A stretch of 64,000 nt of DNA from Bacteriovoracaceae bacterium (GTDB lineage: Bacteria; Bdellovibrionota; Bacteriovoracia; Bacteriovoracales; Bacteriovoracaceae): the NCBI GenBank assembly GCA_016784965.1, contig JADHTQ010000005.1, forward strand, positions 1 to 64,000. Direction: 5' to 3'. A program made the translations under genes and the position numbers. Positions within the stretch are counted from its first letter, which is position 1, and each line of letters opens with the position of its first letter. Shown piece after piece: positions 40,650-59,213 of this stretch. The notes beneath the pieces were generated by a model. The model did no database searches. It was given only the letters and a program-made list of their open reading frames with translations, and was not told the DNA's origin.

Positions 40650-40652
40650 GAA

Positions 40653-42149
40653 ATGGTAGATTTTACGGCAATTGGTGGTGAGTTAGGGACTTCGACATCC
40701 AAATTTTCTTGTGAGGACACAATTATAATCTTTTCCTCTGTAGTTGGTGATGCTCTTACAAAGAATATGGAGGAGAGCTGGAGACTAATGAATAGGTCTA
40801 GTGATAATAGGTGGATCAAAAACTTGGCAATTTTCGATGAGCAGAGAAACTCATGGAGATATGTTGGGGCAATGACAAGATGCTCTGAAAAGTGCAACTG
40901 GTTTACAAAAAGAGGACTGATATCCAATAATGATGATGCGTATGTATCCATTAAGGCCGGTTTGTTTTTGTTGAACCATGAAAGGCAAAATCAGGGTAAG
41001 CCTGAGGTTGGCAGAGTTGGATTTGGATTTGGTATTACCGTTCGACACGGAGAGAACGTAATTGAAAAGTTTTTTAATTACATGAAGGGCAGGCTGGATG
41101 AAGAAGGTGGCAAAAAGTTTATTAACATCAAGGCCAAAAACGTAGCTACCAATGAAGAGAAGGACTTAAAGATTGAATTAGATTTTGCAGTCATGCAGTA
41201 CCAGGCATATGGTGCCTATATGACGATTCTATTTTCTAAATACAATATGCAAGTGTACAATACATATGTAATCGACATCGGTCATGGTACATGGATCAAG
41301 CTGCCCATTGTAGACAATGAAGCAGATGTTAACTTATCAGATTCAAGGACTGAAGGTATTTTTACTATCACTCAAAATATTTCTAAGCTAATTTTTGAAT
41401 CAAGTGGACAGAAGTTTAAAATCCCTGAGCAAAAAATTATGGAGAAGTTGCCCTCTAAGGACTATAAAATTGAGGTCCCAGGGGTTGGCGTTTTTGACTT
41501 CCAGCGGCTTCTAGAGCACGAGTGTCGGCAGTTGGCAGTAGATATCGTGGAGCATGCGATAAACGACTTTGCGATACTATCTCAGAAGGGTCATACAATA
41601 GATTACTTTACCATTATAGGTGGTGGTGCTCATCTGCTATTTGATACTATTAAAGAAGAGATCGGCAACTACTTTCAATGGCCAAAAGAGATCATGGATA
41701 AAAAAGTTATTGCACCCGCATCTCTTGGAATCGACAGTCGTTATATCAACTGCGTGGGCTTTATGCTGCTTGCTAGAGACCAACACGCGATTGAGCATGA
41801 CGAGGATGTAGATCCCAATTTTGAATTAAACCATATTGTTTTTGATATTGACCTCGACGCCGATGGCAAGAAGATGGATAGCAGAATGGTTTCTAAAATG
41901 GAAGGCCATAAGCACGAGGAAGAAAAGAAAGCGGCTGATAAAAAAGCAGCTGAAGAGAAGAAAGCGGCTGACAAAAAAGCAGCTGAGAAGAAAAAAGCTG
42001 ATGATAAAAAAGCTGATGATAAAAAAGCTGATGATAAAAAAGCTGATGATAAAAAAGCTGATGATAAAAAAGCTGATGATAAAAAAGCTGATGATAAAAA
42101 AGCTGACAAGAAAGCTGACGACAAGAAAAAGAAGAGTGACGCCAAGTAA
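40653..42149 (+). CDS. ParM-like actin-fold ATPase 1 with KADDK repeat tail
   Basis: A 498-residue protein with the actin/Hsp70 nucleotide-binding pattern. Phosphate-1 is AIGGELGTSTSKF (6-18). Phosphate-2 is YVIDIGHGTWIKLP (about 205-218). The adenosine loop is FTIIGGGAHLLF (about 319-330). This arrangement (D-I-G-x-G-T) is like ParM/StbA and archaeal actins rather than MreB. The body ends at about 415; the rest is a Lys/Ala/Asp-rich tail with seven ADDKK units. It probably forms filaments; the tail could bind membrane, DNA or partner proteins. ATG 3 bp after the AAA+ stop, with AAAGGAGAA. Confidence 0.8.
   Translation: MVDFTAIGGELGTSTSKFSCEDTIIIFSSVVGDALTKNMEESWRLMNRSSDNRWIKNLAIFDEQRNSWRYVGAMTRCSEKCNWFTKRGLISNNDDAYVSIKAGLFLLNHERQNQGKPEVGRVGFGFGITVRHGENVIEKFFNYMKGRLDEEGGKKFINIKAKNVATNEEKDLKIELDFAVMQYQAYGAYMTILFSKYNMQVYNTYVIDIGHGTWIKLPIVDNEADVNLSDSRTEGIFTITQNISKLIFESSGQKFKIPEQKIMEKLPSKDYKIEVPGVGVFDFQRLLEHECRQLAVDIVEHAINDFAILSQKGHTIDYFTIIGGGAHLLFDTIKEEIGNYFQWPKEIMDKKVIAPASLGIDSRYINCVGFMLLARDQHAIEHDEDVDPNFELNHIVFDIDLDADGKKMDSRMVSKMEGHKHEEEKKAADKKAAEEKKAADKKAAEKKKADDKKADDKKADDKKADDKKADDKKADDKKADDKKADKKADDKKKKSDAK
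41998..42102 (+). repeat. Seven perfect 15-bp tandem repeats in the actin-1 tail
   Basis: Unit GCTGATGATAAAAAA occurs seven times, encoding ADDKK, and is followed by degraded copies to about 42120. Repeats of this perfection are prone to slippage but stay in frame (15 bp). Upstream (41928-41997) a related AADKKAAEEKK pattern precedes them. Confidence 0.95.
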
Positions 42150-42160
42150 CAGGAGGATAT

Positions 42161-42694
42161 ATGAATACATCATATTTGGTTATGGATAACGAGCTAAAAA
42201 CACTTGTTCGAGATTTCTCTAAGGGCTACCCCTATGGGGCCAAGGGTGGTCTCAAAATAGTGCTCAAGTATTACATGAAGTTTCATAAAAAGTGCCGTCG
42301 AAAGGGTGAAGATCCTATTGTTGCATTTGAAAAATTGGTTTCCCAATATGTTTCGGGGACACCTTATGGTGAGTCTGGTGATTTGAATTCGATTTTAAAT
42401 GAGAAAATTCGCAGTCTGGACACCATCCTTGAAGCTGATAGAAAAGTTCAGGTAAAAGGTATAGATGATGGATCGATACTAGATGCCATCAGAGAGGTTA
42501 AGAGTATTGTTCAAGGCATGGGCTCAGGCGGAGGCGGCGGTTATGGCAACGCTATGCCTAGAAAACTCAAGGATTTTAATCCCTCAAATCCAGCAGAACT
42601 TTTAAGGTTGGATAGAAATGCTAGTGTACCCCGAGAGCGTCAGAACTACAGGGATTTGAGAAAAAAGAAGGGGCAGAAAAAGGTTGAGTTTTAA
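42161..42694 (+). CDS. Hypothetical partner protein of the actin cluster, 177 aa
   Basis: I do not recognise this protein. A basic helical N-terminal domain (about 1-105: LKTLVRDFSKGYPYGAKGG..., later VSQYVSGTPYGESGD) contains a repeated 'Y-PYG..G' element. A glycine-rich linker follows (GMGSGGGGGYG), then a very basic tail (ERQNYRDLRKKKGQKK). By position between two ParM-like genes it could be an adaptor comparable to ParR, but no ribbon-helix-helix is visible; that is a guess. AGGAGGAT is a strong ribosome site, 11 bp after the previous stop. The stop overlaps the next ATG (TAATG). Confidence 0.72.
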   Translation: MNTSYLVMDNELKTLVRDFSKGYPYGAKGGLKIVLKYYMKFHKKCRRKGEDPIVAFEKLVSQYVSGTPYGESGDLNSILNEKIRSLDTILEADRKVQVKGIDDGSILDAIREVKSIVQGMGSGGGGGYGNAMPRKLKDFNPSNPAELLRLDRNASVPRERQNYRDLRKKKGQKKVEF

Positions 42695-43815
42695 TGTTTA
42701 CACCAACAAAAAAAATATTTGTTGATCCAGGTAACTTCTATACAAAAATTATTGTAATGAAGGCCGATGGTAGTGGCGGGTTCGAATTTTACGGAAAAAC
42801 CTTTTTCCCTTCAACCGTCACTCCTGCCGCCAAAGAGTCAGGTATTTCGATGCTCTATGGTAATCAGGAGGAAGGCCTGTTTGCAGTAGGACGAGATGCG
42901 CTCGTTTTAGGTGGTTTCACCTATGAGGAGGCAAAACTGCATCCTTGGGGCTGGCGTAGGGATAACGGCAAAAGTTTAGTTACAAAAATTTTGTATGATT
43001 ATGTGGATGAAAAAAACGAACAAATGGAAGTGACGTTTTTGTATGACAGCGCTGAAAAGTTGGCCCTTTTAAAAGAAGTGGTAAAAGACTACAGCAAAGA
43101 TGATGAATTGGTGCCAGTTGAAGCTTTTAGACATCTTGATCAGCACCAACATCATAAAAATACAGAAGTAAAATTTAACTATGTTCCAGTCAGTGATGTG
43201 TTACTAAATTATTTGACTTCATTTGGAGAAGAATTTCGCAAGAGCATAGTAGTAGACATTGCGCACAACGACGTTAAGCTCTTCATTATTGATTCTGAAA
43301 CAGGTGTGAGCCTGTTTAAGACCATAGAAATAGGGGTTAGTACCTACTATGAGAAAATAATGAAACTTTTAACTGAACAAGCGGAAAGTCGAGTGAATTA
43401 TGGTTGGCTCATAAAACAGATAGAGTGCGGCATCACCGAAATTGAGGTTGTATCAGAGATGGATACTTCCGACGGGGATGGACTCGCTATTAGTTTGTTG
43501 AGTGAGAGATTACTGGGAAAACCGAGTGTTCTATTGAATCATTTGAAACAGCGTTTTGACATAAACGACGTTATTGAAAATGTCAGATGGGATCTCAATA
43601 AAGATATTAAGAATATGGTTTATGATACACTGGTTACGTATTGTAGCAATAACGCCATAAACATTGATATCTTGGCCATAATTGGCGGTGGTGCAAATTA
43701 TAATGGAGAAATCCTCGCTCAGAACTTAGAGGAGGAGGAAATTTCGCCAGATATTATTGTGGTGAACGAAATTCCATTATATACTTTAGTAAAGAATGTA
43801 ACGGAGATGTGTTAA
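42694..43815 (+). CDS. Actin-fold ATPase-like protein 2 (divergent ParM-like)
   Basis: A 373-residue protein with the actin/Hsp70 plan. Phosphate-1 is KKIFVDPGNFYTKIIVM (5-21). The phosphate-2 position is SIVVDIAHNDVKLFII (about 183-198), where the usual DxGxxT is changed to DIAHND. The adenosine loop is AIIGGGANYNGEI (about 329-341). Loss of the glycine/threonine in phosphate-2 suggests altered or lost ATP hydrolysis, so it may be a regulatory or capping relative of its neighbours. The start overlaps the previous stop by one base, which indicates translational coupling. Confidence 0.75.
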   Translation: MFTPTKKIFVDPGNFYTKIIVMKADGSGGFEFYGKTFFPSTVTPAAKESGISMLYGNQEEGLFAVGRDALVLGGFTYEEAKLHPWGWRRDNGKSLVTKILYDYVDEKNEQMEVTFLYDSAEKLALLKEVVKDYSKDDELVPVEAFRHLDQHQHHKNTEVKFNYVPVSDVLLNYLTSFGEEFRKSIVVDIAHNDVKLFIIDSETGVSLFKTIEIGVSTYYEKIMKLLTEQAESRVNYGWLIKQIECGITEIEVVSEMDTSDGDGLAISLLSERLLGKPSVLLNHLKQRFDINDVIENVRWDLNKDIKNMVYDTLVTYCSNNAINIDILAIIGGGANYNGEILAQNLEEEEISPDIIVVNEIPLYTLVKNVTEMC

Positions 43816-43846
43816 AAAGAACTTAAATAGTTCCAAGGAGTAAATA

Positions 43847-44269
43847 ATGACGGAAACTAGCGCGATTACATCTAACAGGGTTGGCGGTCATGTTGGGCAT
43901 GGCTTTGATGCAAGTATGAATTTTTTAGGACAGGTGTCTGCTCATGTTGTCAATTCTGGAAAATTTATTATTGATATCGGTAGGCAGTGGGCACAAGCGT
44001 TTTTTGACGCGTGCCGCATGAAACCTAAAGAGGGGACTACCATTAAATATTTAGTAGGAGTGAAAGCTTCTGAATTTGACATGGAGTACCAGAAAGATTT
44101 CTACACCAATGTGGGTAAAGAACTAGTTGATCTTTCCAAAATGGACGAGCTTAGTGATGATCTATTAATTATTGATACATCAAAATTTAAGCATACGTTT
44201 AACGAGCTAGGTGACCAAAAGGACGTTGAGTCACCTGACATAGGGGTGCAAGGAGAGCAAAATGACTGA
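43847..44269 (+). CDS. Hypothetical protein of the actin cluster, 140 aa
   Basis: I do not recognise this protein. It is soluble, with a hydrophobic/amphipathic N-terminal half (about 15-55: VGGHVGHGFDASMNFLGQVSAHV; WAQAFFDAC) and an acidic C-terminal half ending in a disordered tail. No signal peptide or catalytic motif is visible. AAGGAG is 7 bases before the ATG. Its 3' end overlaps the next gene by 8 bp (ATGACTGA), so the two proteins are probably made in matched amounts and may bind one another. Confidence 0.7.
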   Translation: MTETSAITSNRVGGHVGHGFDASMNFLGQVSAHVVNSGKFIIDIGRQWAQAFFDACRMKPKEGTTIKYLVGVKASEFDMEYQKDFYTNVGKELVDLSKMDELSDDLLIIDTSKFKHTFNELGDQKDVESPDIGVQGEQND

Positions 44270-45485
44270 TGAATACGACAACGACGACAACATTCTAGAC
44301 AGACTCATTAAGGAGGTCGAGGTAGTTATCGATCCAGTTAATGAGGACAGGATTCTAGAACGTATTTCTGACTTGAAAAAGTCTGAAAAGAAAGTGGATT
44401 CTTCTACCCACTTCAAGAAAGGGAAATCGGTAGACTCGGATGACATGCCTGGAATTGATGTGTCGAGGGCCAAGACGGTTGCCAATCCGACTGATTCAGA
44501 CTCTATGTTGGGACTTGATATTGGTACCAGTAGAATTATCGGATTAAGAATCGATGGTGTCAGTGAGCCCAGTTCATCAAAGGATCTAAACGCCTATTTT
44601 AGAATACCATATTCAGATTTGGCCAAACAGATGTTGATCAAAAATAATATGAAGTATTTTAAAAGGGCCGAGAGCTTGTTTATATACGGCTTTGATGCAG
44701 AGTCTTTTGCCAATATGTTCAATGCAGAAATTTTGCGACCTATGGAGACTGGCTTATTAAAGTTGGGTGATACCATGGCCGTTCCAGCTGAAAAAAAGCT
44801 CATTGAATCAGTTATTGGAGCACCTGAAACCATTGGGGAGAGTTGCTGCTTTTCGATTCCGTCACCGGTAGAATCTAATGAAAGTAGTATTGTTTTCCAC
44901 GAACAGGTGTTGAAAAAATATCTTACAGGCTTAGGCTATAGAGCGCAGAGTATTTTTGAAGGCACATGTGTTGTTTTATCTGAGTTGGCTGAAAACAACT
45001 ATACAGGCATCGGCATCAGTATGGGCGCCGGGATGTGTAATGTAAGCTTCTCATTTTTGTCAGTACCAGTCATGTCATTTGGAGTTACAAAAGGCGGAGA
45101 CTACATTGATAGAAGTGTTGCTCAGATTGTTAAAGAACCTATGAACAAAGTTAGGATCATTAAAGAGCAATCACTAAACTTAGGTAAAGTTCCAACCAAC
45201 AGCCTAGAAAATGCACTACATGTTTACCACGAGGACTTGATTGGTACCTTGCTAAATGTCTTAAAGCAAAACCTACAAAATGCGAGTAATTTTCCTCAAG
45301 TACATGAAGAGATTCCTATTGTGATCTCTGGAGGAACATCTGCTCCCAAGGGCTTTAAGGAAAAATTTGAAAAGGTGCTAAAAACACTACATCTGCCTGT
45401 AAATATCTCTCATGTTAAAGTTGCAAGTGCTCCGCACCTTGCGGTAGCAAAAGGTGCTCTTATTAATGCAACAACAATGAAATAG
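44262..45485 (+). CDS. Actin/Hsp70-fold ATPase-like protein 3 with acidic N-terminal extension
   Basis: A 407-residue protein. Residues 1-80 are an acidic, partly helical extension. The actin-type core starts at MLGLDIGTSRIIGL (about 82-95). Phosphate-2 appears as GIGISMGAGMCNVSFSF (about 250-266; the leading Asp is replaced by Ser, the Thr by Cys). The adenosine loop is IPIVISGGTSAPKGF (about 351-365). The C-terminal ASAPHLAVAKGALI resembles the MreB/PilM/Hsp70-type end. It is therefore nearer to MreB/Hsp70-like proteins than its two neighbours are, and its catalytic pocket is degenerate. Confidence 0.75.
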   Translation: MTDEYDNDDNILDRLIKEVEVVIDPVNEDRILERISDLKKSEKKVDSSTHFKKGKSVDSDDMPGIDVSRAKTVANPTDSDSMLGLDIGTSRIIGLRIDGVSEPSSSKDLNAYFRIPYSDLAKQMLIKNNMKYFKRAESLFIYGFDAESFANMFNAEILRPMETGLLKLGDTMAVPAEKKLIESVIGAPETIGESCCFSIPSPVESNESSIVFHEQVLKKYLTGLGYRAQSIFEGTCVVLSELAENNYTGIGISMGAGMCNVSFSFLSVPVMSFGVTKGGDYIDRSVAQIVKEPMNKVRIIKEQSLNLGKVPTNSLENALHVYHEDLIGTLLNVLKQNLQNASNFPQVHEEIPIVISGGTSAPKGFKEKFEKVLKTLHLPVNISHVKVASAPHLAVAKGALINATTMK

Positions 45486-45495
45486 GGATGTAAAA

Positions 45496-46674
45496 ATGAG
45501 TTTTGGCACTGAAAGAAGAGAAGCTCCTCGTTTTGAAACTTCGGACTTACTATTTGAGTACCAAGATTACAAACTGGATGTACTAAATATTTCTAAAAAT
45601 GGCGTTTTAATTTACTCCCCTGATGGCTTACCTGAGGATTTGCTACTGTTGGCCAAAAGCCAACAGTTCGTTTTTTGGCTACACGATAAAGTTAAGGGTG
45701 AGTCAATGGAGTGCGAAGGCCGAGTCATCAGATGCATTTTAAAAGAAGACAACCATAGTTTCGACAAAGCCGCCATTGCCTTTAATCCAACTCAAAGTGT
45801 ACAGATGCAAAAAGAGTCATATGGCCCACACGTTATTGCTGTTGGTGGGTCAAAGGGCGGAGTTGGTAAGACTGTAACGGCAGTCAATTTATCATTAATG
45901 TTGGCCCTACTTGGAAAAAAGGTTACGCTATTTGATGCCGATTTTGGAGATGCTGATTGTCACACGATGTTGGGAGTGAGAAAACTAAGTAGTGATGTTG
46001 GAGACTATCTACATAATGAGGTTCGACTGGCAGATGCAAGGATCGACACTTCTTATAAAAATCTAAAATTAATTAGCGGGGGGGTAAATAAAATCGAAGG
46101 CATTGCCAAGCAGGTTCCACACCTGTGGAAGGATATGAAGACCCTTCCGTGCGACTATGTAGTAGTAGATTTAGATGCTGGTATTGGTGACCATACTATT
46201 GAGTTTTACAATAGAGCGGCTACCAAGATCATTGTGTTAACTCCCCAGTTTACATCGTTACAAAATGCCTACTCATTTATAAAGGCGTCGACCTATTCTG
46301 CACTTTATCAAAATTTCAAAATCCGAGAAAAACTAGGGGATATGGGAGATGATTTCACAAAATTGTTTCCTGCCATGAAATTGTTATCTAAGGATGATGA
46401 AATAAGCAAGGAGTTTCATTCAGTCTTAGAACAGCAGGGTTTTAAAATTATTGGAAACATGGTCAATTCGGAAAAAGAGCTTGGGTTTGTAAAAATCCTA
46501 ACCAAATTAGTAGGGGAGCATCTCGGGATTGAAAGTTCAATTTTAGATGTACTTAGACGCTGCAATGAAGTACATGATTCAATTAATAAAATTACACCAT
46601 TTATTGCATTGTCACCGGAATCAGAGAATGCAAGACGTATGAAAGAGATTGTGAATAGATTAATAAGACAGTGA
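45496..46674 (+). CDS. PilZ-MinD/ParA fusion ATPase
   Basis: A 392-residue protein. Residues 1-105 are a PilZ domain with both c-di-GMP motifs: RxxxR (R8-E-A-P-R12) and NxSxxG (N31-I-S-K-N-G36). The MinD/FlhG-type ATPase begins at about 115: deviant Walker A SKGGVGKTVTAVN, LFDADFGDADCH (switch I), VVVDLDAGIGD (switch II/Walker B) and the LVLTPQ-like VLTPQFTS. MinD/FlhG ATPases position cell structures. Here cyclic di-GMP would be expected to switch the ATPase. No amphipathic C-terminal MinD helix is obvious. RBS AGGGATG; 10 bp after the previous gene. Confidence 0.88.
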   Translation: MSFGTERREAPRFETSDLLFEYQDYKLDVLNISKNGVLIYSPDGLPEDLLLLAKSQQFVFWLHDKVKGESMECEGRVIRCILKEDNHSFDKAAIAFNPTQSVQMQKESYGPHVIAVGGSKGGVGKTVTAVNLSLMLALLGKKVTLFDADFGDADCHTMLGVRKLSSDVGDYLHNEVRLADARIDTSYKNLKLISGGVNKIEGIAKQVPHLWKDMKTLPCDYVVVDLDAGIGDHTIEFYNRAATKIIVLTPQFTSLQNAYSFIKASTYSALYQNFKIREKLGDMGDDFTKLFPAMKLLSKDDEISKEFHSVLEQQGFKIIGNMVNSEKELGFVKILTKLVGEHLGIESSILDVLRRCNEVHDSINKITPFIALSPESENARRMKEIVNRLIRQ

Positions 46675-46720
46675 AAGTTAACATAGGTTAAGTTTATATC
46701 TTGATAAAAGGGGTACATTG

Positions 46721-49700
46721 ATGTCAGAGAATTTTGAAAAGATATTGGCGATAGATGAAAATAGATCCGCACTAGATGAAATGGTAAGACATTTATCAAC
46801 TGATTTCCAAATTAGAACGACTGTTTCAGCACAAGATGCAAGAAACATTTTTAAGGTGTTTAAGCCCAATGTTGTCATTATGGATGTTGGTTTAGCCGAC
46901 GGTTCCTTTTTCGATCTTCTTTCAGAGTTTAAAGAAGGTGATCAGGATGTGGTCAGAATTGCTACATCGGACGATTACAATAATTTAAAAAGTATTATGG
47001 AGGCCATCAATTTGGCCAATGTCCATAAGTTTTATAAAAAGCCCATTGATTATTCTGATTTAAAAAGTATCATCAGGACCAATGCCCAAGGCTTACAAGC
47101 AGCTCAAGATGGGAAAATTCAAGTTAGTGATGAAGCTTCTTATGCAAAACTAAAATCTAGCCTTAACTTGATCGAAGAGGCTGAGATGTTGAGAAAGCAG
47201 GTTGATTCTCAAAAGTCTACTTCTTATAAGTTACAACAAGCACAAATTCAGCGCTCCAAGCAAATAGAGGAACTTGAAGATGTGGTTGAAAATTTATGCC
47301 TTGAGACCGAAGCACTTGAGAGATTAAATGAGCAGAGTTTGGCGCAAACAGAAAGAGAGCGAAATGCCCTAAGAGTAGAGGTGGACCGTCTTAGCGATGA
47401 AAATGAAGATTTAAAAAGAAAGCAGCAGAAGCTAGAAGTCAAAGCGCATGCAGAGCAAGTTGCCACTTTTGAAATAGATGATACTTTTGACCAATATAAA
47501 CGTGAAAAAAGAAATGGCTTAGATTCTGTTCTCTATGTCGGTAAAGATTGGGAAGCTGGTAGGAAATTTTCAGATGTGTTTGAGACTGAATTTAACGTAC
47601 TGGCCGTAGACAATGAAGAAAAGGCCATAGGTCTTTTAGAAAAAGATGATCAGATAAGGTTAATGATCACTGAACAACAGATGGGAGTGTCACTGGCCCA
47701 ACTTGTAAATGAGATGTATCCAGATTTTCCAGTCTTTTTACTCACTAATGGAGTACAGATAGAGGTTTCAGAAGGTGCTGTAAACAGCGTAGATATAACT
47801 AAATACGTTGGAGTGCCATTTGATCCAAGGGTCTTGCGCCGAGAAATTAAGGCGGCCATAAAGAAATATGATACTTTAGCAATCAAACGGATGATTATCG
47901 ATAAGAGAAAGAAATTTATTGTAACACAGTTTAAGGAGCAAGCAGAAGTTGTAGAGGAATTGCAACGCACGGTTGACCACTATCCAGATAAAGTATCTGA
48001 TCTTAGAAAATCTATAAAATATCTAAAAAGTGATCAAGATGATCGAGAAGAGCTACACAAAGAGAGGCTGGGGATAGTTGAAAGTAAGCGAGATTCTTTG
48101 AAAGAAGAGTTGAAAAAACTGACCAGTGATTATAAACGGTTGTTAGCTGAAAAAGAATTGAGCGATAAAACGGCACATGACTATAAAGTCGCTGTAGATT
48201 CACAAAAAGAAGCCACCTTGCGAGTTACAGCTGGAATGGCAAGAATCGGGCGAGAAAAAATTGATGGCAAGGATTCAGTCCTATGTGTTGGCAGTGATGA
48301 CATGCAACCCATAATTGATCACATGGAAAAAACTTATAATGTCTACACAGCTCCAAGTGCAGATAAAGCACTTACGGCCCTAAAAGATCACAAAGATATA
48401 TGTTTAATTTTGACAAATCAAAAACTGGCGAAAGTAAACGGTTTAGAATTAGCTGCAAGGGTAAAAGAGATTTCCCCAGCGATTCCCGTTTGCTTACTGG
48501 CTGATTCCAAAGATTATGAAGTAGCAAAAGATGCATTAAACTCTTCCAATATCTTTAAATATTTTGAAAAACCCTATCAGAGGACTCTGGTTTCAGAAGT
48601 TGTCATGGATGGTATCAACTACTATGACCGCGAAGCTGTCAGGGTAGCTATTTATGATGAGCAACAAAAGTTTATTGTTGATAGCATCCAAACTAAGGAT
48701 GTGGAGCTACAAAACTTGAAGTTTGCTGTGGATAAAGAGCGCCAAGAAATGCAAAAGGCCATGGATGCCAAGCGTGAAACGCTAATTAAAGAAACGACAG
48801 ATAAGTGTGATAAAATGCTGGCAGAGACAAGGACGGAAGTGGACAAAAACCGCTCAGAAATTCGGGGAGAGCACCAAACTATGGTCCAAAGTTTAGATCA
48901 AAGACAGAAGGAGCAAGAAGCGATGATAGCAAAATTGGATAAAAGGTTTGCAGAGCAAAAAGCGACCCAGGAAAAACTAAATAGGATGCAAAAAGAGCAA
49001 GAGCTGATGGCCGACGACCTGAAAAGAAGAAGCCTGAGCGTTGAAGAGCAAGAGGATATAGTAAGAGATAAACTAGACAAGCTACGTGCAGAAACTAGCA
49101 AAGAAATGGAGGAGATTGCGCAAGAAAGAGATAGGATGAGAGAAGATGCGAGAAAAGAAAAAGATCAACTGCGCAGGGATACCCAACAAAGCATTCAAGA
49201 ACTAACCGTTAAAAGAGATAAATTAGATAAAGAGGTTAAGCGAGACCAGGAAGAGATAATTGAAAGAACTCAGAGACAGCGAAGAGAATCTGATCGCGAG
49301 CGTGATGACATGGTCCATGAGTTAGAGAAGCTTAGAAAAGATGTTCAGCGTGAAAGAGATGGACTGCTTGAAGAACAAGAACAAATGCGCAGAATGGTCG
49401 CTAAGGAAAAAGAAGCAGCACTCGCTAAAATCGAAGATGAACATAGAGCACTTATCGCTGAACAAAAAAGAGAGATGGACGAACTTAGCGAGCGAGTGAA
49501 TAAAAAGCGTGAATTGGTATCAGCAGAGTCTAAAGAAGAGATAGATTCCATTAAGAAAAAGCATAGAATTGCTCACGACACTTTGATGGCCGAACTCGAA
49601 GAAGAAGGTAAGTTAGAGAGAGATATACTTGTTAAGAGGTTAGAAAAAGAGCGCGAATTACTACTTGCCAAGTCAACAGAGGAGCGCAATGAGATTACTC

Positions 49701-51133
49701 GAAAAATGGAAAAAGAGCGCAACAACCTAATGGCAGAGCTAAAAGAAGAGCGGGATCTGGCCAAAATTGAAAAAGAAGAAATTCTGAAAAAACTTGATAA
49801 AGAGCGCGAAGTGTTGATGAATGAGATCAAAGATGCCCGTGAAGAGCAAGTACTACTTGAGCGAGAGCAACTAGAGGTAGAAAATAGAAATAAGGCCGCA
49901 CTTGCTAAGCTTACAAAAGAGCATGAATTAATGCTCGCCAAATCTCAAGCCGAGCAAGATAATTTGGGCAAAAAGAACCAAGAAATGATTCAAGAGGCAA
50001 TTGCTGAGCGCGATGCGATTATGCAAAAATCACAAGAGGATAAGAAGGCACTTGAAGAGACCTTGGCCAATGAGCGCAAAGAGTTTGAAGCCAAAATGGA
50101 ACAAGAGCGCAAAGACTTTCTTAAAGAAACTGAGAGACTTCACGCTGAAGCTGAAGAAAAGAAAAAGAAAGCCAAAGAGGCCACTGAAGCTGCTACCAAA
50201 AAGCTGGAAGAGGAGCGCGAGGCAATTTTGGCCCAGGCCTTTGATGAGCAGGAAAAACTGAAAAAAGAAAAAGAAGAGCTGGTCAAGAAAATGGATAAAG
50301 AGCGCGAAGAGTTATTGGCCGAATCAGAAAAAGAAAGAGAGAGGCTCAGACACGAAAAAGAAGAAACAATTAGAAAGATGGATGAAGAGCATCAGTTGCT
50401 ATTAGAAGACGCTGAAGCAGAAAGAGAGGCGGCAATAAGAGAGAGGCAGGAGATCTCTGCTAAGATCAATGAAGAGCGCGACAGATTGCGCGAAGAAGTA
50501 CAAGAGATGGAGGCCAGTGTCGCAACCGCCAAAGAGGCCATAAGTCAAAAAATTTCAACTGAACGCGAGACCATGCTGAGTCAGGCAGAAGCTGAGCGGC
50601 AAAGAACAGTTGATCAAATTAGTGAAAAACGCGAGATGCTACTTGCCGGAGCAAAAGAGAAAGAGAGATTAATTACTGACAAGATAAACAAAATGCAGGA
50701 TGTCTTTCAAAATCAGCGCGAATTGATGATTTCTGAAGTAGAGGAGCAAAGGCAGACGAAGATTCAAGAATTAGAGCAAGTACAAAGAGAGTTTAAGCAA
50801 GAGATGATCCGCAGAAAGTCAGAGTTGGAGCGAACCTTCGAGGAACGTGTTCAAAAGGCCGTGCAAAGTGAACGCTCACGCATGCTGTTAGATGTCCAAA
50901 AAGAGCGCCGAAGCAAAATTGGTGAGATGGAAAGAATTCAGCATCAATTCAAAAATGAAATGGTCAAAAGAAAAAAAGAGCTAGAAACTAGTGAAATGAT
51001 GCTGAAGCGGCAAAAAAAGAGTATTCCAACTGGCCATCAAGAAGAGTTAGATCGACTAAAGAAAAAGTGTGAGCTTTTAGAAGACTCCAGGTCTGCCCTA
51101 GTTGCGGAATTGGCGGAGCTTCAAGGAGATTAG
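46721..51133 (+). CDS. Giant coiled-coil protein with three receiver-like domains
   Basis: 1470 residues from the ATG at 46721, which follows AAAAGGGG. REC1 (1-125) keeps the functional set: D12/E13, phosphoacceptor D55 (VVIMDVG), T82, K107. REC2 (about 265-390) has Glu in place of the phospho-Asp (MITEQQMG) and lacks the Lys. REC3 (about 517-640) has Asn at that position (LILTNQK) but keeps the Lys (FEKPY). REC2 and REC3 are therefore likely pseudo-receivers. Short coils separate the three. Residues about 650-1470 are an uninterrupted Glu/Lys/Arg-rich coiled coil with KEREELLAES-type repeats. The protein is probably a long scaffold controlled by one phosphorylatable domain. Confidence 0.88.
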   Translation: MSENFEKILAIDENRSALDEMVRHLSTDFQIRTTVSAQDARNIFKVFKPNVVIMDVGLADGSFFDLLSEFKEGDQDVVRIATSDDYNNLKSIMEAINLANVHKFYKKPIDYSDLKSIIRTNAQGLQAAQDGKIQVSDEASYAKLKSSLNLIEEAEMLRKQVDSQKSTSYKLQQAQIQRSKQIEELEDVVENLCLETEALERLNEQSLAQTERERNALRVEVDRLSDENEDLKRKQQKLEVKAHAEQVATFEIDDTFDQYKREKRNGLDSVLYVGKDWEAGRKFSDVFETEFNVLAVDNEEKAIGLLEKDDQIRLMITEQQMGVSLAQLVNEMYPDFPVFLLTNGVQIEVSEGAVNSVDITKYVGVPFDPRVLRREIKAAIKKYDTLAIKRMIIDKRKKFIVTQFKEQAEVVEELQRTVDHYPDKVSDLRKSIKYLKSDQDDREELHKERLGIVESKRDSLKEELKKLTSDYKRLLAEKELSDKTAHDYKVAVDSQKEATLRVTAGMARIGREKIDGKDSVLCVGSDDMQPIIDHMEKTYNVYTAPSADKALTALKDHKDICLILTNQKLAKVNGLELAARVKEISPAIPVCLLADSKDYEVAKDALNSSNIFKYFEKPYQRTLVSEVVMDGINYYDREAVRVAIYDEQQKFIVDSIQTKDVELQNLKFAVDKERQEMQKAMDAKRETLIKETTDKCDKMLAETRTEVDKNRSEIRGEHQTMVQSLDQRQKEQEAMIAKLDKRFAEQKATQEKLNRMQKEQELMADDLKRRSLSVEEQEDIVRDKLDKLRAETSKEMEEIAQERDRMREDARKEKDQLRRDTQQSIQELTVKRDKLDKEVKRDQEEIIERTQRQRRESDRERDDMVHELEKLRKDVQRERDGLLEEQEQMRRMVAKEKEAALAKIEDEHRALIAEQKREMDELSERVNKKRELVSAESKEEIDSIKKKHRIAHDTLMAELEEEGKLERDILVKRLEKERELLLAKSTEERNEITRKMEKERNNLMAELKEERDLAKIEKEEILKKLDKEREVLMNEIKDAREEQVLLEREQLEVENRNKAALAKLTKEHELMLAKSQAEQDNLGKKNQEMIQEAIAERDAIMQKSQEDKKALEETLANERKEFEAKMEQERKDFLKETERLHAEAEEKKKKAKEATEAATKKLEEEREAILAQAFDEQEKLKKEKEELVKKMDKEREELLAESEKERERLRHEKEETIRKMDEEHQLLLEDAEAEREAAIRERQEISAKINEERDRLREEVQEMEASVATAKEAISQKISTERETMLSQAEAERQRTVDQISEKREMLLAGAKEKERLITDKINKMQDVFQNQRELMISEVEEQRQTKIQELEQVQREFKQEMIRRKSELERTFEERVQKAVQSERSRMLLDVQKERRSKIGEMERIQHQFKNEMVKRKKELETSEMMLKRQKKSIPTGHQEELDRLKKKCELLEDSRSALVAELAELQGD

Positions 51134-51197
51134 ATTCTCAATTCTTTAAAGTTGAATATCGTTACTATTTAGTGCATAGTATTTACAAGTTTTTTTT

Positions 51198-51223
51198 AAC
51201 AGGGCAGCTTAGGCTGCCCTGTT
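51198..51223 (+). terminator. Strong hairpin ending the actin/coiled-coil operon
   Basis: AACAGGGCAGC pairs with GCTGCCCTGTT over 11 bp around a TTAG loop, 65 bp after the coiled-coil gene stop. The downstream T-run is broken (AGTCTTT); a T8 run precedes it. A bidirectional or partial terminator is likely, and it separates this operon from the liu-type operon. Confidence 0.8.
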
Positions 51224-51286
51224 AGTCTTTATGACACTGGGCCATAAACACATTTTAATAAATATTTAAAAAACAAAGGAAATTTT

Positions 51287-52456
51287 GTGGACTTTGAATT
51301 GACGGAAGAACAGAAGTTACTAAGAAGTACAGTTAGATCTTTTGCAGAAGAAGAGATAAGACCGACCATGAAGGAGTTTGATAAAAAAGAAGAATTTCCC
51401 GTGGAGATAACCAAAAAGATGTTTGACTTGGGATTGTTTGGGATTTTTGTACCTGAAGAATACGGAGGTTCTGGTTTGGATTATCTTTCATACGTCATAG
51501 TCGTAGAAGAGCTGGCCCGTGTCAACGCCTCGTGCGCTGCAACTGTGGCAGCCGGCAACTCTTTGGGCATAGGTCCCATCTACTATTTTGGTACAAAGGA
51601 GCAAAAACAAAAATATCTTCCACCATTATGTAGTGACAAAAAACTCTGGGGCTTTGGGTTGACTGAACCAGATGCTGGCTCAGATGCTTCTAATACAAAA
51701 ACTACAGGTTTGATCAAAGATGAAAGAATTATTTTAAATGGTGCTAAAATCTTTATTACCAACGCATCATCACCACTTACTTTGGGCTCAACAGTTCAAT
51801 TTAAAAGCGGTGTAAAAGATAATGGGAAAAAAGAGTTAAGTTGCGCTTTAGTATTAAATAATACGGACGGTTTCACCCAAAAAACTATGAAAAATAAGAT
51901 GGTCTGGAGATCCTCAAATACAGCAGAGCTCTACTTTCAAGACTGTACAGTACCCCAAGAGAACTTATTGGGAAAAAAAGGCGATGGCCTAAAAATAATG
52001 CTTTCCACTTTAGATCGCGGCAGACTTTCTATTGCTGCAATGGGGCTAGGTGGTGCTCAAGGTGCCTATGAAGCTGCTCTTAGGTATTCAAAACAAAGAG
52101 TGCAGTTTGGTGTACCAATTTCAACTATGCCCGTAAATGCTTTCAAATTGGCGGAGATGGCCACTCGAATCGAGGCGGCAAGGTCGCTTTTATATCGCAC
52201 GTGTTGGGAGCTAGACAATAATAAACCATTTGCAGAGCACGCTGCCATGAGCAAGCTATATTGTGCCGATGTAATGCGCTATTGTGCGAACGAGGGAGTA
52301 CAGCTGCATGGCGGATATGGCCTGATGGAAGAGTTTGATGCGGCCATGTTTTTTAGAGACCAAAAACTTCTCGATATAGGGGAAGGAACTTCAGAAATTC
52401 AAAGGATGGTAATTTCTAGACATATAGGCTGTTATGATTTGGCGGGGGGTGCATAG
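51287..52456 (+). CDS. Acyl-CoA dehydrogenase (leucine/branched-chain or short-chain type)
   Basis: FAD flavoprotein oxidising acyl-CoA to enoyl-CoA. The 389 residues match the family. Marks: YGGSGLDYLSYVIVVEELAR, LTEPDAGSDAS (FAD/substrate contacts) and the catalytic Glu in IGEGTSEIQRMVISRHIG (near 375). Isovaleryl-CoA dehydrogenase carries its base on helix G instead; here that position lies in LDRGRLS, with Gly. The catalytic geometry is therefore of the SCAD/2-methylbutyryl type, even though the operon is liu-like. GTG start with AAAGGA. First gene of the operon. Confidence 0.87.
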   Translation: MDFELTEEQKLLRSTVRSFAEEEIRPTMKEFDKKEEFPVEITKKMFDLGLFGIFVPEEYGGSGLDYLSYVIVVEELARVNASCAATVAAGNSLGIGPIYYFGTKEQKQKYLPPLCSDKKLWGFGLTEPDAGSDASNTKTTGLIKDERIILNGAKIFITNASSPLTLGSTVQFKSGVKDNGKKELSCALVLNNTDGFTQKTMKNKMVWRSSNTAELYFQDCTVPQENLLGKKGDGLKIMLSTLDRGRLSIAAMGLGGAQGAYEAALRYSKQRVQFGVPISTMPVNAFKLAEMATRIEAARSLLYRTCWELDNNKPFAEHAAMSKLYCADVMRYCANEGVQLHGGYGLMEEFDAAMFFRDQKLLDIGEGTSEIQRMVISRHIGCYDLAGGA

Positions 52457-54079
52457 ATGACAATTCTTGCAACATCGATTAACAAAAATGAACGTTTCGA
52501 ACAAAACCTTAAGTTTAATCAATCATTATTAGAAGAACTAAAAAATAAAAATGAATCCGTGGCCCAAGGTGGGGGAGCCCGGGCCACAGAGCGACATTTA
52601 AAACGTGGTAAGATGTTTTGTCGCGAAAGAATTTCTGCCTTGATTGATCCAGGAACTTCATTTTTAGAAGTTGGAAAGCTTGCGGCCTATAATATTTATG
52701 ACAACAACTCACCCAGTGCAGGAATTGTAACAGGGGTTGGTCGAGTAAGTGGTGTTAACTGCATGATTGTGGCCAATGATGCTACTTGCAAGGGCGGAAC
52801 TTATTATCCTTTGACGGTAAAAAAGCATTTAAGGGCCCAAGAAATTGCAGAGTTTAATAATTTGCCCTGCATTTACTTAGTGGATAGTGGGGGAGCATAC
52901 TTGCCTCTTCAGTCTGAAGTTTTTCCCGATAGGGAGCATTTTGGCCGTATTTTTTTTAATCAAGCCAGGATGAGTGCAAAAGGTATTACTCAGGTAGCTG
53001 TGGTGATGGGAAGTTGTACTGCAGGTGGAGCGTATGTTCCGGCCATGAGTGATGAGACTATCATTGTAAAAAATCAGGGAACGATCTTTTTGGCAGGGCC
53101 ACCGCTTGTAAAAGCGGCAACAGGAGAAGTGGTAACAGCAGAAGAGTTAGGCGGCGGTGAAGTACATACTATGAAGTCTGGAGTTGCCGACTATCTGGCA
53201 GATAATGATGCTCATGCACTAGAGTTGACCAGAGAGATTATTGACAACTTAGAGGATAAAAAATCTTATTCCATAAGAAAGTCGTTGTTTAACAGATCGG
53301 AGAGTACTCCTCCTGTTAACGAGATTAAAGAAATACTGGGGATTATACCGACAGATCCAAAAATTCCTTTTGATGTTCGCGAAGTGATATCAAGAATAGT
53401 TGATGGATCACAATTTCACGAATTTCGTCCACTTTATGGCACTACTTTAGTTTGTGGATTTGCCCATATGCATGGGTATCCCGTGGGCATTGTTGCCAAC
53501 AACGGAATTCTTTTTAGTGAAAGTTCTCTTAAGGCAGTGCACTTTATTGAGCTGTGTGAAAAGCGGCAAACCCCATTAATATTTTTACAAAACATTACAG
53601 GATTTATGGTGGGCAGAGAATATGAGCAGGGAGGAATCGCCAAAGATGGTGCCAAAATGGTGACCGCTGTAGCAACAACTTCTGTACCTAAAATTACGGT
53701 AGTAATTGGTGGCTCTTTTGGTGCTGGCAATTACGGTATGTGTGGAAGAGCATATGATCCAAGGTATCTGTTTATGTGGCCCAATGCCAGGATATCTGTG
53801 ATGGGTGGTCCACAAGCCGCTGATGTTTTAGGCCAGGTCAAGGTTGAACAATTGGCAAAAGAGGGGAAGCATTTATCTAAAGAAGAAGTAGAAGAAATTA
53901 GACGTCCGATTGTAGAACGTTATGAGCTAGAGGGCTCTCCATACTTTAGTAGTGCTAGGTTATGGGATGATGGAGTGATCAATCCACTGGATACGCGCAA
54001 GATCTTAGGACTTTGCTTAGAAAGTATTCAATTTGGTAGTCCGAGCCACGATAGGGGCTTTGGCGTTTTTAGAATGTAA
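52457..54079 (+). CDS. mccB: Methylcrotonyl-CoA carboxylase beta subunit (carboxyltransferase)
   Basis: Transfers carboxyl from biotin to 3-methylcrotonyl-CoA in leucine catabolism. The 540 residues are the usual length. N- and C-terminal crotonase-fold carboxyltransferase halves are seen. Family marks: VASQGGG-type [101 protein letters not shown] and [18 protein letters not shown]. The last two are typical of MCC-beta/geranyl-CoA carboxylase; the context favours MCC. It starts immediately after the dehydrogenase stop (GCATAGATG). Confidence 0.93.
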
Positions 54080-54099
54080 GTTTTTTTTGGAGGTGTGTT

Positions 54100-54900
54100 A
54101 TGCAGGATTTTGAAACAATTCTAACGACTAAAAAAGATGGTGTACTGGAAATTAGTCTCAATCGTCCGGCCAAAAAGAATTCTTTTAACCCTACAATGAT
54201 TAAAGAGCTATCTACGGTCTTTGAAACTTTAGCATTAGCACCAGAAATATATGTGGTAGTCATTCGAGGCAGCCGGGATCTCTTTTGTGCAGGTGCTGAT
54301 CTGGGGTGGATGAAAGATACTATGAACTATTCTCAGCAAGAAAATGTTGAGGATGCACTTCGATTGTCTCATATGTTTTCTCTTATCAACGACTGTCCTA
54401 AAGTTGTAGTTGCCGTTGTTCATGGCTTTGCAATCGGCGGTGCTGTGGGTCTTGTTAGTGCCAGTGATTACGTTATTGCCGAAAAAGAAACTAAGTTTTC
54501 ACTATCAGAAGTGAGGTTAGGACTAATACCAGCTTGTATTGGACCTTTTGTTGAATCTAAGATTGGAGAATCTTGGTCCAGGGCCCTCTTTTTAAGCGCT
54601 GAGCGTTTTGATGCCAATAAGGCCCAATCTATTGGTCTTGTGCATGAGGTGATTGATGGAGTATCTAATTTGCAAAAGCGCTGTGAGCAGCTGTGCAAGA
54701 ATATTTTAAGTTGCTCTCCCTTGGCACAAAAAGTTGCCAAGAATTTTTTAAGTGAACTAAAGCAGCTTCCAGACTGTGACAAAAATAAGTGTGCCGCCAC
54801 AACCCTGGCCAATTTGCGCACGACAGATGAAACCCAAGAGGGGTTGAGTGCCTTTTTAGAAAAACGCAGTCCAAATTGGAAAAAATTTTATGAAAACTAG
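54100..54900 (+). CDS. Enoyl-CoA hydratase, probable methylglutaconyl-CoA hydratase
   Basis: Crotonase-superfamily enzyme of 266 residues. Marks: SLNRPAKKNSFNP, the oxyanion/CoA loop DLFCAGADLGWMKDTMNY, and AVVHGFAIGGAVGLVSASDYVIAEKETKFSLSEVRLGLIPACIGPFV, where the SEVRLGLIP block holds a catalytic Glu. Its place between MCC subunits points to hydration of 3-methylglutaconyl-CoA (LiuC-type). An HMG-CoA lyase (last step) is not in this operon. Its end overlaps the biotin carboxylase start by 11 bp. GGAGG precedes the ATG. Confidence 0.87.
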   Translation: MQDFETILTTKKDGVLEISLNRPAKKNSFNPTMIKELSTVFETLALAPEIYVVVIRGSRDLFCAGADLGWMKDTMNYSQQENVEDALRLSHMFSLINDCPKVVVAVVHGFAIGGAVGLVSASDYVIAEKETKFSLSEVRLGLIPACIGPFVESKIGESWSRALFLSAERFDANKAQSIGLVHEVIDGVSNLQKRCEQLCKNILSCSPLAQKVAKNFLSELKQLPDCDKNKCAATTLANLRTTDETQEGLSAFLEKRSPNWKKFYEN

Positions 54901-56389
54901 TGGAAAAAAATTATTGGTTGCCAATCGAGGCGAAATTGCTTGTCGAATATTTGAGACATGTCAACTGCTTGGAATTAAAACTTACGCTATAGTAGCAGAT
55001 AACGATTTAGCGTCAAGGCACACAAAACAAGCAGATGTAGTGATATCTCTTAAAGGTGATGGGCTCAGCTCGACCTACTTAGATCAAGAGCAAATTATAA
55101 ATTGTGCAATGGAACATGGAATTGATCTCATTCATCCAGGTTATGGATTTTTAGCTGAAAATGCCCAATTTGCAAAAAAAGTGGAAGAAAATGGCATTAC
55201 TTGGGTTGGGCCGCACTCTGACGCCATTTTAAAGATGGGATCAAAAATTGAATCAAAGGCCATAGCAGAAGCTGCCAACATTCCAATATTGCCATGGTTT
55301 AAAATTGAAGACACTAAACAATTGGATGAAATTGTATATAAAGCAGCTGAAATTGGCTATCCACTGCTTATTAAAGCTTCTGCAGGTGGTGGTGGAAAGG
55401 GTATGAGAATTGTTCACAGCTCAGAGGATCTTGTGGGGGCAATTCGCCAAGCTCAGGATGAAGCTGGTGCCAGCTTTGGAGATGCCAGTGTTTTTATGGA
55501 GAGATGGATTGAGACCCCAAGACATATTGAAGTGCAGGTAATGGGCGATAAATGTGGTAACTATTTTCATCTTTTTGAAAGAGAATGCTCGGTGCAAAGG
55601 AGGCATCAAAAAGTAATTGAAGAAGCACCGGCCTTTAATTTAAATCAGACGACAAAAAGTTTGTTATATGAAAGTGCGGTAGCTCTTGCTGAATATATGA
55701 ACTACGACAGTGCTGGAACGGTTGAATTTATCTTAGATGAAAAACAAAATGTTTACTTTTTAGAGATGAACACTAGGATACAAGTCGAACACCCTGTAAC
55801 TGAGATGATAACTGGTGCAGATTTGATCGAGATGCAGATTAGGGCCGCATTGGGTGAGCCACTACATAGTTTACAAAAGCTTATTCCCGCTGTGCCCTTT
55901 GGTCATGCAATTGAGTGTAGAATCTATGCAGAAAACGTTGAACAAAACTTTATGCCATCACCTGGAGAGATTAATAAATTGGAGTGGCCCATCTTAAAAA
56001 ATGTTCGCATTGATTCGGGCATTAGTGATGGAGGGGAGGTGACTTCATTTTATGATCCAATGATCGCCAAACTCATTGCCTGGGGAGCAGATAAAAATGC
56101 AAGCATAGAGTGCGTTCTAAACGCCTTAAACAAAACGACCATTCTTGGGGTGGTTCACAATATTGAATTTTTAAAAGTACTGCTATCTGAGACGTCATTT
56201 ATAGAGTCGACCCTTTCGACTAACTGGCTTTCTGCGCATGTAGAGTCTGTAGTAAAGAAGACTCATGTTGATCCTAAAGAGTTAATGGAAGCAGCTTTAC
56301 TAGTAATAAAAAATAGACCAATTTCTTGCCGGAGCGGTGATTATAAAGAGCAAAAGATGGTTTCGTTGTTTGAGGAGATTGTCCTATGA
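54890..56389 (+). CDS. Biotin carboxylase subunit (split MCC alpha)
   Basis: ATP-dependent carboxylation of biotin. It is 499 residues long; a full MCC alpha is about 650-700, and here the biotin domain is the next gene. Order: N-terminal KKLLVANRGEIACRIFETC (4-22), the ATP-grasp domain with KASAGGGGKGMRIV (near 159), FLEMNTRIQVEHPVTEMITG (catalytic Glu/Arg), and the C-terminal domain GHAIECRIYAEN with biotin-carboxylase cap (PSPGEINKLEWP). The stop and the next ATG overlap as ATGA. Confidence 0.92.
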   Translation: MKTSGKKLLVANRGEIACRIFETCQLLGIKTYAIVADNDLASRHTKQADVVISLKGDGLSSTYLDQEQIINCAMEHGIDLIHPGYGFLAENAQFAKKVEENGITWVGPHSDAILKMGSKIESKAIAEAANIPILPWFKIEDTKQLDEIVYKAAEIGYPLLIKASAGGGGKGMRIVHSSEDLVGAIRQAQDEAGASFGDASVFMERWIETPRHIEVQVMGDKCGNYFHLFERECSVQRRHQKVIEEAPAFNLNQTTKSLLYESAVALAEYMNYDSAGTVEFILDEKQNVYFLEMNTRIQVEHPVTEMITGADLIEMQIRAALGEPLHSLQKLIPAVPFGHAIECRIYAENVEQNFMPSPGEINKLEWPILKNVRIDSGISDGGEVTSFYDPMIAKLIAWGADKNASIECVLNALNKTTILGVVHNIEFLKVLLSETSFIESTLSTNWLSAHVESVVKKTHVDPKELMEAALLVIKNRPISCRSGDYKEQKMVSLFEEIVL

Positions 56390-56856
56390 AGTACGATTTA
56401 AACTATGGAAAACATGCATACACCCTATCCATTGTGGGATCTGAGGTACAATTGATTCAAGATGAGAACGTTGTCTGTGCTGGAAATTTAAAAAAGCTGG
56501 AACCAGCTCTGGCAGAGCAAATACATGTAAAGGTTGGTGCCTTGACCTTTGTAAAGAGGGAAAATAAGCATCTTTGCTTTGAACTGGCGCCAAGCGCGGG
56601 CAGAGGGACTGCCAAGGAGAGTAATTCTTCACCCTTGATTGAAAGTGTAATGCCTGGCAAAATTGTTGCTATACATGTGCAAAGAGGTCAACTTGTTAAA
56701 AAAGGAGACTTATTAGTGACGATGGAGGCGATGAAAATTGTAAATGATATTGCTGCAACAATGGATGGAGCGGTGAGTGAAATTTTTATCGAAGTAGGGC
56801 AAATGGTCGCTGTAAAGAGCAAACTGGTAGAATTGGCACCAACAATTGATAGCTAA
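56386..56856 (+). CDS. Biotin carrier subunit with biotinyl domain (split MCC alpha C-terminus)
   Basis: A 156-residue protein. The first about 65 residues are a beta-rich part corresponding to the BT linker of MCC alpha (LNYGKHAYTLSIVGSEVQLI). The biotinyl/lipoyl domain follows (SVMPGKIVAIHVQRGQLVKKGDLLVTMEAMKIVNDIAAT). Biotin would be carried by the Lys in EAMKIVND. Translation is coupled to the biotin carboxylase (4-bp ATGA overlap). Together the two proteins replace the single alpha chain, an arrangement like AccC/AccB. Last gene of the operon. Confidence 0.9.
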   Translation: MKYDLNYGKHAYTLSIVGSEVQLIQDENVVCAGNLKKLEPALAEQIHVKVGALTFVKRENKHLCFELAPSAGRGTAKESNSSPLIESVMPGKIVAIHVQRGQLVKKGDLLVTMEAMKIVNDIAATMDGAVSEIFIEVGQMVAVKSKLVELAPTIDS

Positions 56857-59188: not shown

Positions 59189-59213
59189 GTGTTAACTAAA
59201 AAGGGTGTTTAGT

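Follow-up and report, generated by a model that had tools for sequence, protein, structure and literature searches.

We analysed a stretch of 64,000 nucleotides from a Bacteriovoracaceae bacterium of the Bdellovibrionota (GCA_016784965.1, contig JADHTQ010000005.1, positions 1 to 64,000 of the forward strand; hereafter, the window). Its 3' part holds a gene for a giant protein, here called the receiver-rod protein, that combines response regulator receiver (REC) domains with a long helical rod and lies among genes for actin-like proteins. This gene closes a row of eight genes on one strand (38859-51133), spaced by 46 nt or less, and a terminator-like hairpin follows it. An earlier note on this DNA, made from the letters alone, had given the open reading frame (ORF), its coordinates and its length of 1470 amino acids (aa) exactly. 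The protein and its parts are as follows.

46721-51133, +: receiver-rod protein (REC-coiled-coil), 1470 aa (ORF list, Pfam, family alignment)
46733-47101, +: REC1, aa 5-127, full acceptor site D12/E13, D55, T82, K107 (alignments, PDB search, AlphaFold2)
47132-47461, +: helical linker 1, aa 138-247 (AlphaFold2)
47510-47875, +: REC2, aa 264-385, pseudo-receiver, Glu at the acceptor position, Lys lost (alignments, PDB match, AlphaFold2)
47876-48241, +: helical linker 2, aa 386-507 (AlphaFold2)
48257-48604, +: REC3, aa 513-628, pseudo-receiver here, with Asn (Pfam, alignments)
48641-51010, +: charged helical rod, aa 641-1430, Pro-free, period about 3.62-3.64 (periodicity analysis)
51032-51130, +: conserved C-terminal segment (SR..L..E), aa 1438-1470 (family alignment)
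51196-51225, +: terminator-like hairpin, 63 nt past the stop codon (pattern match only)

The only Pfam family detected in the receiver-rod protein is Response_reg (E 3.1e-19), which matches in two stretches. When aligned with the CheY reference and with relatives, REC1 displays D12/E13, D55, T82 (in IATS), the aromatic F104 and K107; the automatic alignment slipped by 1-2 residues around T82, which was therefore assigned by eye, to the end of the fourth strand (predicted at 78-83). In the same comparison, the acceptor residue is replaced by Glu in REC2 and by Asn in REC3; the Lys is replaced by Val in REC2 and retained in REC3, where Ala stands in for the Thr. The hallmarks of a response regulator receiver, that is, (beta-alpha)5 order, the acidic pair, the acceptor Asp, the Thr/Ser and the Lys, are all found in REC1, and REC2 and REC3 are degenerate; the alignment thus bears out the prediction of the earlier note that the protein has one working-type receiver and two pseudo-receivers. 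In an AlphaFold2 model of residues 1-666, REC1 and REC2 show (beta-alpha)5 order, with a predicted local distance difference test score (pLDDT) of about 69-88 per block and long helices between them. REC2 also has a sequence match in the PDB (HupR, E 2.5e-4), and its predicted fold may owe something to the pairing, in the input alignment A5, with the C-proximal receiver of the relatives. The same pairing is probably why REC3 comes out unfolded, as the invariant columns of A5 fall on REC2; the model is uninformative on REC3. Long Foldseek alignments to PleD and PorX, with root-mean-square deviations of 65-89, were rejected as evidence of homology, and single-receiver matches alone were used.

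Of the family of the receiver-rod protein, 11 members were inspected; the receivers of 10 were aligned, and one member (from genome G402) was read separately (Gnnn are genome labels, G000 being the genome of the window; Lnnn are loci or relatives). Alignment A4 holds nine of them, with G130 and G402 (L125/L126) outside it; a 652-aa match in L048 proved to be a hybrid histidine kinase and was excluded from the family alignments and measures. REC2 has no counterpart in the other eight members of A4, and the position of REC3 is occupied by a canonical receiver in most relatives. This C-proximal receiver carries the full D-D/D/T/K set in 8 of the 11 members (G019, G025, G130, G195, G337, G338, L050 and G402), has D/S/K in G039 and Asn in the window protein, and is absent from L056. 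The acceptor Asp of REC1 is present in G000, G039, G195, G338, L056 and G402 and is replaced by Ser in G019, G025 and G130, by Thr in G337 and by Glu in L050. All 11 members retain at least one receiver with the acceptor Asp, Thr/Ser and Lys (that of L056 lacks the second acidic residue). To judge from these sequences, the competent receiver has moved between domains within the family.

In the rod, residues 641-1425 contain no Pro and six Gly, and the hydrophobic period is 3.64 across the whole rod (3.62-3.64), with autocorrelation peaks at lags 11, 18 and 29. Of 17 segments, each 84 residues long, 15 are significantly periodic (the observed power was reached in no more than 4% of 200 shuffles) and two, spanning residues 935-1060, are not. 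The C-terminal helix has a period of 3.61-3.64 in all nine members of A4. By the same measure, the SbcC coiled coil in the window gives 3.40-3.49, and two coiled-coil proteins of the gene neighbourhood give 3.50. With a period of 3.62-3.64 and not 3.5, the rod is therefore no ordinary heptad coiled coil; it would be either a coiled coil with hardly any supercoil or an amphipathic helix that rests on a surface, and the data fit both. The rise of an alpha-helix is 0.1485 nm per residue, so that residues 641-1430 would measure about 117 nm if fully extended. The reading as a single alpha-helix (SAH) was not adopted, as i,i+4 salt bridges are not in excess (52 acidic(i)-basic(i+4) pairs, z 0.64, where 48.7 would be expected); i,i+4 pairs of like charge are depleted (z -3.8). 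The rod also resembles itself, best at an offset of 29 residues (27 identities in 60 vs a maximum of 21 in 30 shuffles). Past the last receiver, it extends over 294-356 residues in 8 of 10 members, 534 in L056 and 842 in the window protein, and most of the extra length of the latter is unmatched in the family alignment.

The other genes of the row, together with a second block of genes downstream, make up a module of which most genes co-occur in up to ten other genomes. In the window, the module genes and a nearby ParA-type gene are:

38859-40649, +: AAA+ ATPase of ClpA/B type (AAA, AAA_lid_9) (domain search, gene order)
40653-42149, +: actin-like 1 (ACT1), Mad28-like (gene order, conservation)
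42161-42694, +: 177-aa conserved module protein without family (domain search, gene order)
42694-43815, +: actin-like 2 (ACT2), weak MreB-like_C match, E 0.0085 (Pfam, gene order)
43847-44269, +: 140-aa module protein without family (domain search, gene order)
44262-45485, +: actin-like 3 (ACT3), Volactin family PF25216, E 5.8e-74 (Pfam)
45496-46674, +: PilZ domain fused to a ParA/MinD-type ATPase (domain search, gene order)
57232-58527, +: HEAT-repeat protein, Mad23-like (domain, gene order)
58520-59188, +: coiled-coil protein, 222 aa, Mad24/25 position, heptad period 3.50 (order, periodicity)
59205-59888, +: coiled-coil protein, 227 aa, Mad25/26 position, heptad period 3.50 (order, periodicity)
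59901-60665, +: 254-aa conserved module protein (domain search, gene order)
61948-62763, -: ParA-type ATPase (AAA_31), with relatives near the module in other genomes (domain search, gene order)

The usual order of the module is HEAT - coiled coils - 254-aa protein - AAA+ - (receiver-rod) - ACT1 - 177-aa protein - ACT2, and the order ACT1 - 177-aa protein - ACT2 is found in G402 too. In 7 of the 11 members (G000, G039, G195, G337, G338, L050 and L056), the receiver-rod gene lies inside the module row, either flanked by the AAA+ gene and ACT1 or at the row end. The HEAT - coiled coils - actin order matches the mad23-mad28 magnetosome-chain module of magnetotactic bacteria from deep-branching lineages, for which the locus tags of strain FSS-1 give the order mad23-x-mad25-mad26-mad28 (PMC7951924). 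Because both the domains, Mad23 being described as HEAT repeats plus coiled coil (PMC12748827), and the gene order fit the published one, we designate the HEAT gene Mad23-like, place the coiled-coil proteins at Mad24-26 positions and call ACT1 Mad28-like. In Desulfovibrio magneticus RS-1, loss of Mad23 scatters the magnetosomes, Mad25/26 keep subchains straight, Mad28 holds chains at positive curvature, and Mad23/25/26/28 mutants mis-arrange chains (PMC12748827). As in the Mad20/Mad23/Mad25/Mad26/Mad28 network of RS-1, coiled-coil, HEAT and actin-like genes occur alongside magnetosome genes; unlike that network, the module described here has the receiver-rod protein, two more actins, the PilZ-MinD protein and the AAA+ ATPase built in. 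The terms 'response regulator' and 'receiver domain' do not occur in the text of PMC12748827.

The phyletic distribution ties the receiver-rod protein to the same module. Among 368 Bdellovibrionota genomes, ACT1 was found in eight, which represent seven genera and three families, and full-length relatives of the receiver-rod protein in exactly the same eight, at 358-875 bits; the next best match, at 117 bits, covers the receiver only. All eight genomes with ACT1 have magnetochrome matches (E<=1e-3), four of them above the cut-off, compared to 4 of the 360 others, where the matches are weak and below it (Fisher p 6e-14, a value that is uncorrected for phylogeny and overstated by shared descent). 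Magnetochromes are encoded on the module's own contig in G019, G025, G195 and G338. In the genome of the window, a magnetosome cluster lies on contig C81, with best NCBIfam matches to MamA (2e-35), MamB (2e-62) and MamM (8e-61), all scoring below the NCBI equivalog cut-offs; MamE is among the top matches of three protease/PDZ proteins, one PDZ protein holds two magnetochrome domains, and FeoB lies about 4 kb beyond the mam-type genes. Outside the 368-genome survey, the receiver-rod protein is present in three of four further module genomes, and magnetochromes above the cut-off in all three of those tested (G368, G369 and G370; G402 was outside this test). The named carriers of the module belong to Oligoflexia, Bdellovibrionales and Deltaproteobacteria, alongside proteobacterial assemblies. 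G369 holds L050, from nXX_bin1, which has been assigned to UBA10199 (PMC7602337); in the phylum of G369, ACT1 occurs in 2 of 46 genomes, and the second one also has a receiver-rod protein.

The clusters of magnetotactic Bdellovibrionota described in April 2026 contain such mad genes as mad17, 23, 25, 27, 28, 29 and 30, with mad28 in every assembled cluster, and lack mamK; the same paper asks what builds chains without mamK in this phylum and points to Mad28 (PMC13200544). One genome named there, Kiruna3_bin-3974, has the module and a kinase array in our analysis (L053/G337). The excerpt of PMC13200544 names neither the receiver-rod protein nor ACT2 or ACT3. Taken together, the membership of the receiver-rod protein in a magnetosome-chain module is well supported.

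What could feed the receivers is suggested by the gene neighbourhoods of the relatives. In 9 of 12 genomes (G019, G025, G130, G195, G337, G338, G368, G369 and G402), histidine kinase genes are found no more than 10 kb from ACT1 or the receiver-rod gene; G370 was surveyed over 11 kb only. The statement of the earlier note that the cluster lacks a histidine kinase is correct for the window proteins scanned but does not carry over to most relatives. In three genomes (G019, G130 and G402), the kinase is upstream of the receiver-rod gene within the same row: in G019, a hybrid-kinase ORF overlaps the receiver-rod gene by 8 bp; the row of G130 reads kinase, kinase, double receiver, receiver-rod relative; and in G402, the kinase ORF ends 126 bp upstream. 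In G337, an unbroken run of eight two-component genes, coding for kinases, hybrid kinases and a double receiver (L071:188-10606, -), follows ACT2 directly, in agreement with PMC13200544, where two new assemblies have 5-10 such genes side by side close to the cluster and where, in the portion consulted, the array is given no role. These arrays apart, we found no work that connects the magnetosome cytoskeleton with two-component systems or receiver domains in the open-licence literature searched, mostly at the level of titles and abstract starts.

A direct link between actin and receiver is suggested by G039, where a 684-aa protein (L024:7882-9936, +), encoded about 5 kb downstream of the receiver-rod gene, consists of a Mad28-like actin, a receiver and a coiled coil. 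The actin part is 34% identical to ACT1 of the window (E 2e-72), and the receiver matches the profile of the family's C-proximal receivers (1.8e-16) better than those of kinase-array receivers (1.7e-5) or REC1 (2.7e-5). As read from the sequence, this fusion links actin to a receiver-coiled-coil part within one chain.

Several observations concern other parts of the module and its surroundings. ACT1 and ACT2 were assigned as actin-like by weak MreB-like_C matches below the Pfam cut-off; ACT1 had no match in sequence searches of the PDB and NCBIfam, and ACT3 had one weak MreB match in the PDB (E 0.038). The Volactin family of ACT3 was described from archaea and scores above the Pfam cut-off in only 4 of 97 relatives searched, precisely the four of them that have the module. 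The tail of ACT1 is Lys/Asp/Ala-rich and repetitive here (DDKKA repeats) and absent or much shorter in other copies, and the 177-aa protein sits between ACT1 and ACT2 in every locus holding both. The PilZ-MinD/ParA fusion (45496-46674) suggests a c-di-GMP input into the module; in G338, sequence inspection found a short PilZ-like gene (27682-28098) and a separate MinD gene (28095-29015) with overlapping ends. The module is interrupted in the window by a row of genes for acyl-CoA dehydrogenase, carboxyl transferase, enoyl-CoA hydratase, biotin carboxylase and biotin carrier (51287-56856, +). Just past the window, a 4552-aa ORF lies in the same genome (C102:65806-79464, -). Rfam and tRNA scans of the window gave no matches.

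The closest parallels to the architecture of the receiver-rod protein are FrzS and AglZ of Myxococcus xanthus, which likewise run from an N-terminal receiver through a coiled coil to a C-terminal tail and which localise a cell machine (PMC1974792). FrzS has one receiver, which lacks the Asp, and a coiled coil of 258 residues (PMC1974792); the protein in the window differs in having three receivers, among them one whose acceptor site is complete, and in the period of its rod (3.62-3.64). The N-terminal receiver without an acceptor Asp that marks FrzS and AglZ is not seen here, as REC1 has D55, and FrzS is not among the 11 PDB matches of REC1 at E<=0.01.

We consider it probable that the receiver-rod protein, as part of a mad-type module, acts as a linker that joins signalling to the cytoskeleton of the magnetosome chain under the control of phosphorylation; this is the most economical reading of the receivers, the rod, the kinase linkage and the fusion. 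The location in the module is well supported; in the mechanism that we infer, phosphorylation, binding and localisation are all predicted. A histidine kinase, from the neighbouring array in most relatives and unlinked here, would phosphorylate REC1, which would alter the surface or the pairing of the receivers. The rod and the conserved C-terminus would anchor the protein to Mad23/25/26-type proteins or to actin filaments, and the anchored protein would then attach, release or re-orient the magnetosome chain. It would be a signal-gated link from cell signalling to the magnetosome cytoskeleton, by analogy with FrzS and AglZ, proteins of Myxococcus localising machines that combine a receiver with a coiled coil. 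Its long rod would give it a reach of up to about 0.1 micrometre and would not be a conserved ruler.

Several points weigh against this reading. Family members are only 23-31% identical to the window protein, and G368, a module genome with a fragmented assembly, has no receiver-rod relative. The Mad23/25/26/28 names come from domains, gene order and papers and not from comparison to reference sequences. The AlphaFold2 model of ACT1 is poor (pLDDT 53.5) and lends no support; the fold search was not based on it. The rod could bind a membrane or stay single instead of pairing. The receiver of the G039 fusion has, by eye, lost the acceptor Asp and went undetected by Pfam at E<=0.001.

Other doubts are better put as alternative explanations. 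The protein might be a purely structural cytolinker, in which the rod and the pseudo-receivers bundle or tether Mad28 filaments and magnetosomes and the receivers are binding modules as in FrzS, which requires its receiver but not Asp phosphorylation (PMC1974792). The competent receiver differs among members, pseudo-receivers are common and the REC1 acceptor is lost in 5 of the 11, so that phosphorylation might be dispensable; moreover, no histidine kinase was found near the module in the genome of the window (Pfam scans of window proteins) or in G039. However, loss in one receiver is offset by another in every one of the 11 members, and kinase genes are tightly linked in several relatives, which makes this alternative unlikely in our view. 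Still more doubtful is that the protein is no more than a fellow traveller of the magnetosome island, a signalling output that serves the adjacent kinase array as a phosphorelay hub rich in receivers and controls, for example, flagella or aerotaxis: kinase arrays do adjoin the gene in relatives, and in G019, G025, G130 and G402 it stands apart from the ACT1-ACT2 row, another point against the linker, but its place in the row itself in the other seven members and the actin-receiver-coiled-coil fusion argue otherwise. The ruler or spacer suggested in the earlier note, in which the length of the rod would fix, say, how far apart the magnetosomes are or where along the cell the chain lies, we regard as very improbable, since the rod varies about 3-fold (294 to 842 residues over 10 members), its extra length here is mostly unmatched and residues 935-1060 lack significant periodicity, for all that about 785 Pro-free residues with near-continuous periodicity could extend to about 117 nm; the phospho-switch and the link to positioning proposed with it do fit the module, as known members of the module position and string magnetosomes.

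A broader and more tentative possibility, on which we would not yet rely, is that two-component signals act directly on the magnetosome cytoskeleton, with an array-fed receiver-rod protein switching how or where the chain is held. Together with the two extra actins, one of the archaeal Volactin family, and the PilZ-MinD protein, it might then form an apparatus for the chain that works without MamK, is controlled by signals and is found only in UBA10199 and the magnetotactic Bdellovibrionota. The rod, whose period comes near that of a straight alpha-helix, would in that case be a linker of an unusual kind, with almost no supercoil.

For the chain apparatus of the mamK-less Bdellovibrionota, these results make the list of parts more complete, attach a defined phyletic signature to it and add a putative signalling input that is undescribed for any magnetosome cytoskeleton in the open-licence literature searched. 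The question of whether the compass needle is regulated becomes testable with one gene: two-component signals may act on the building or placement of the magnet chain in these compass-carrying relatives of Bdellovibrio.

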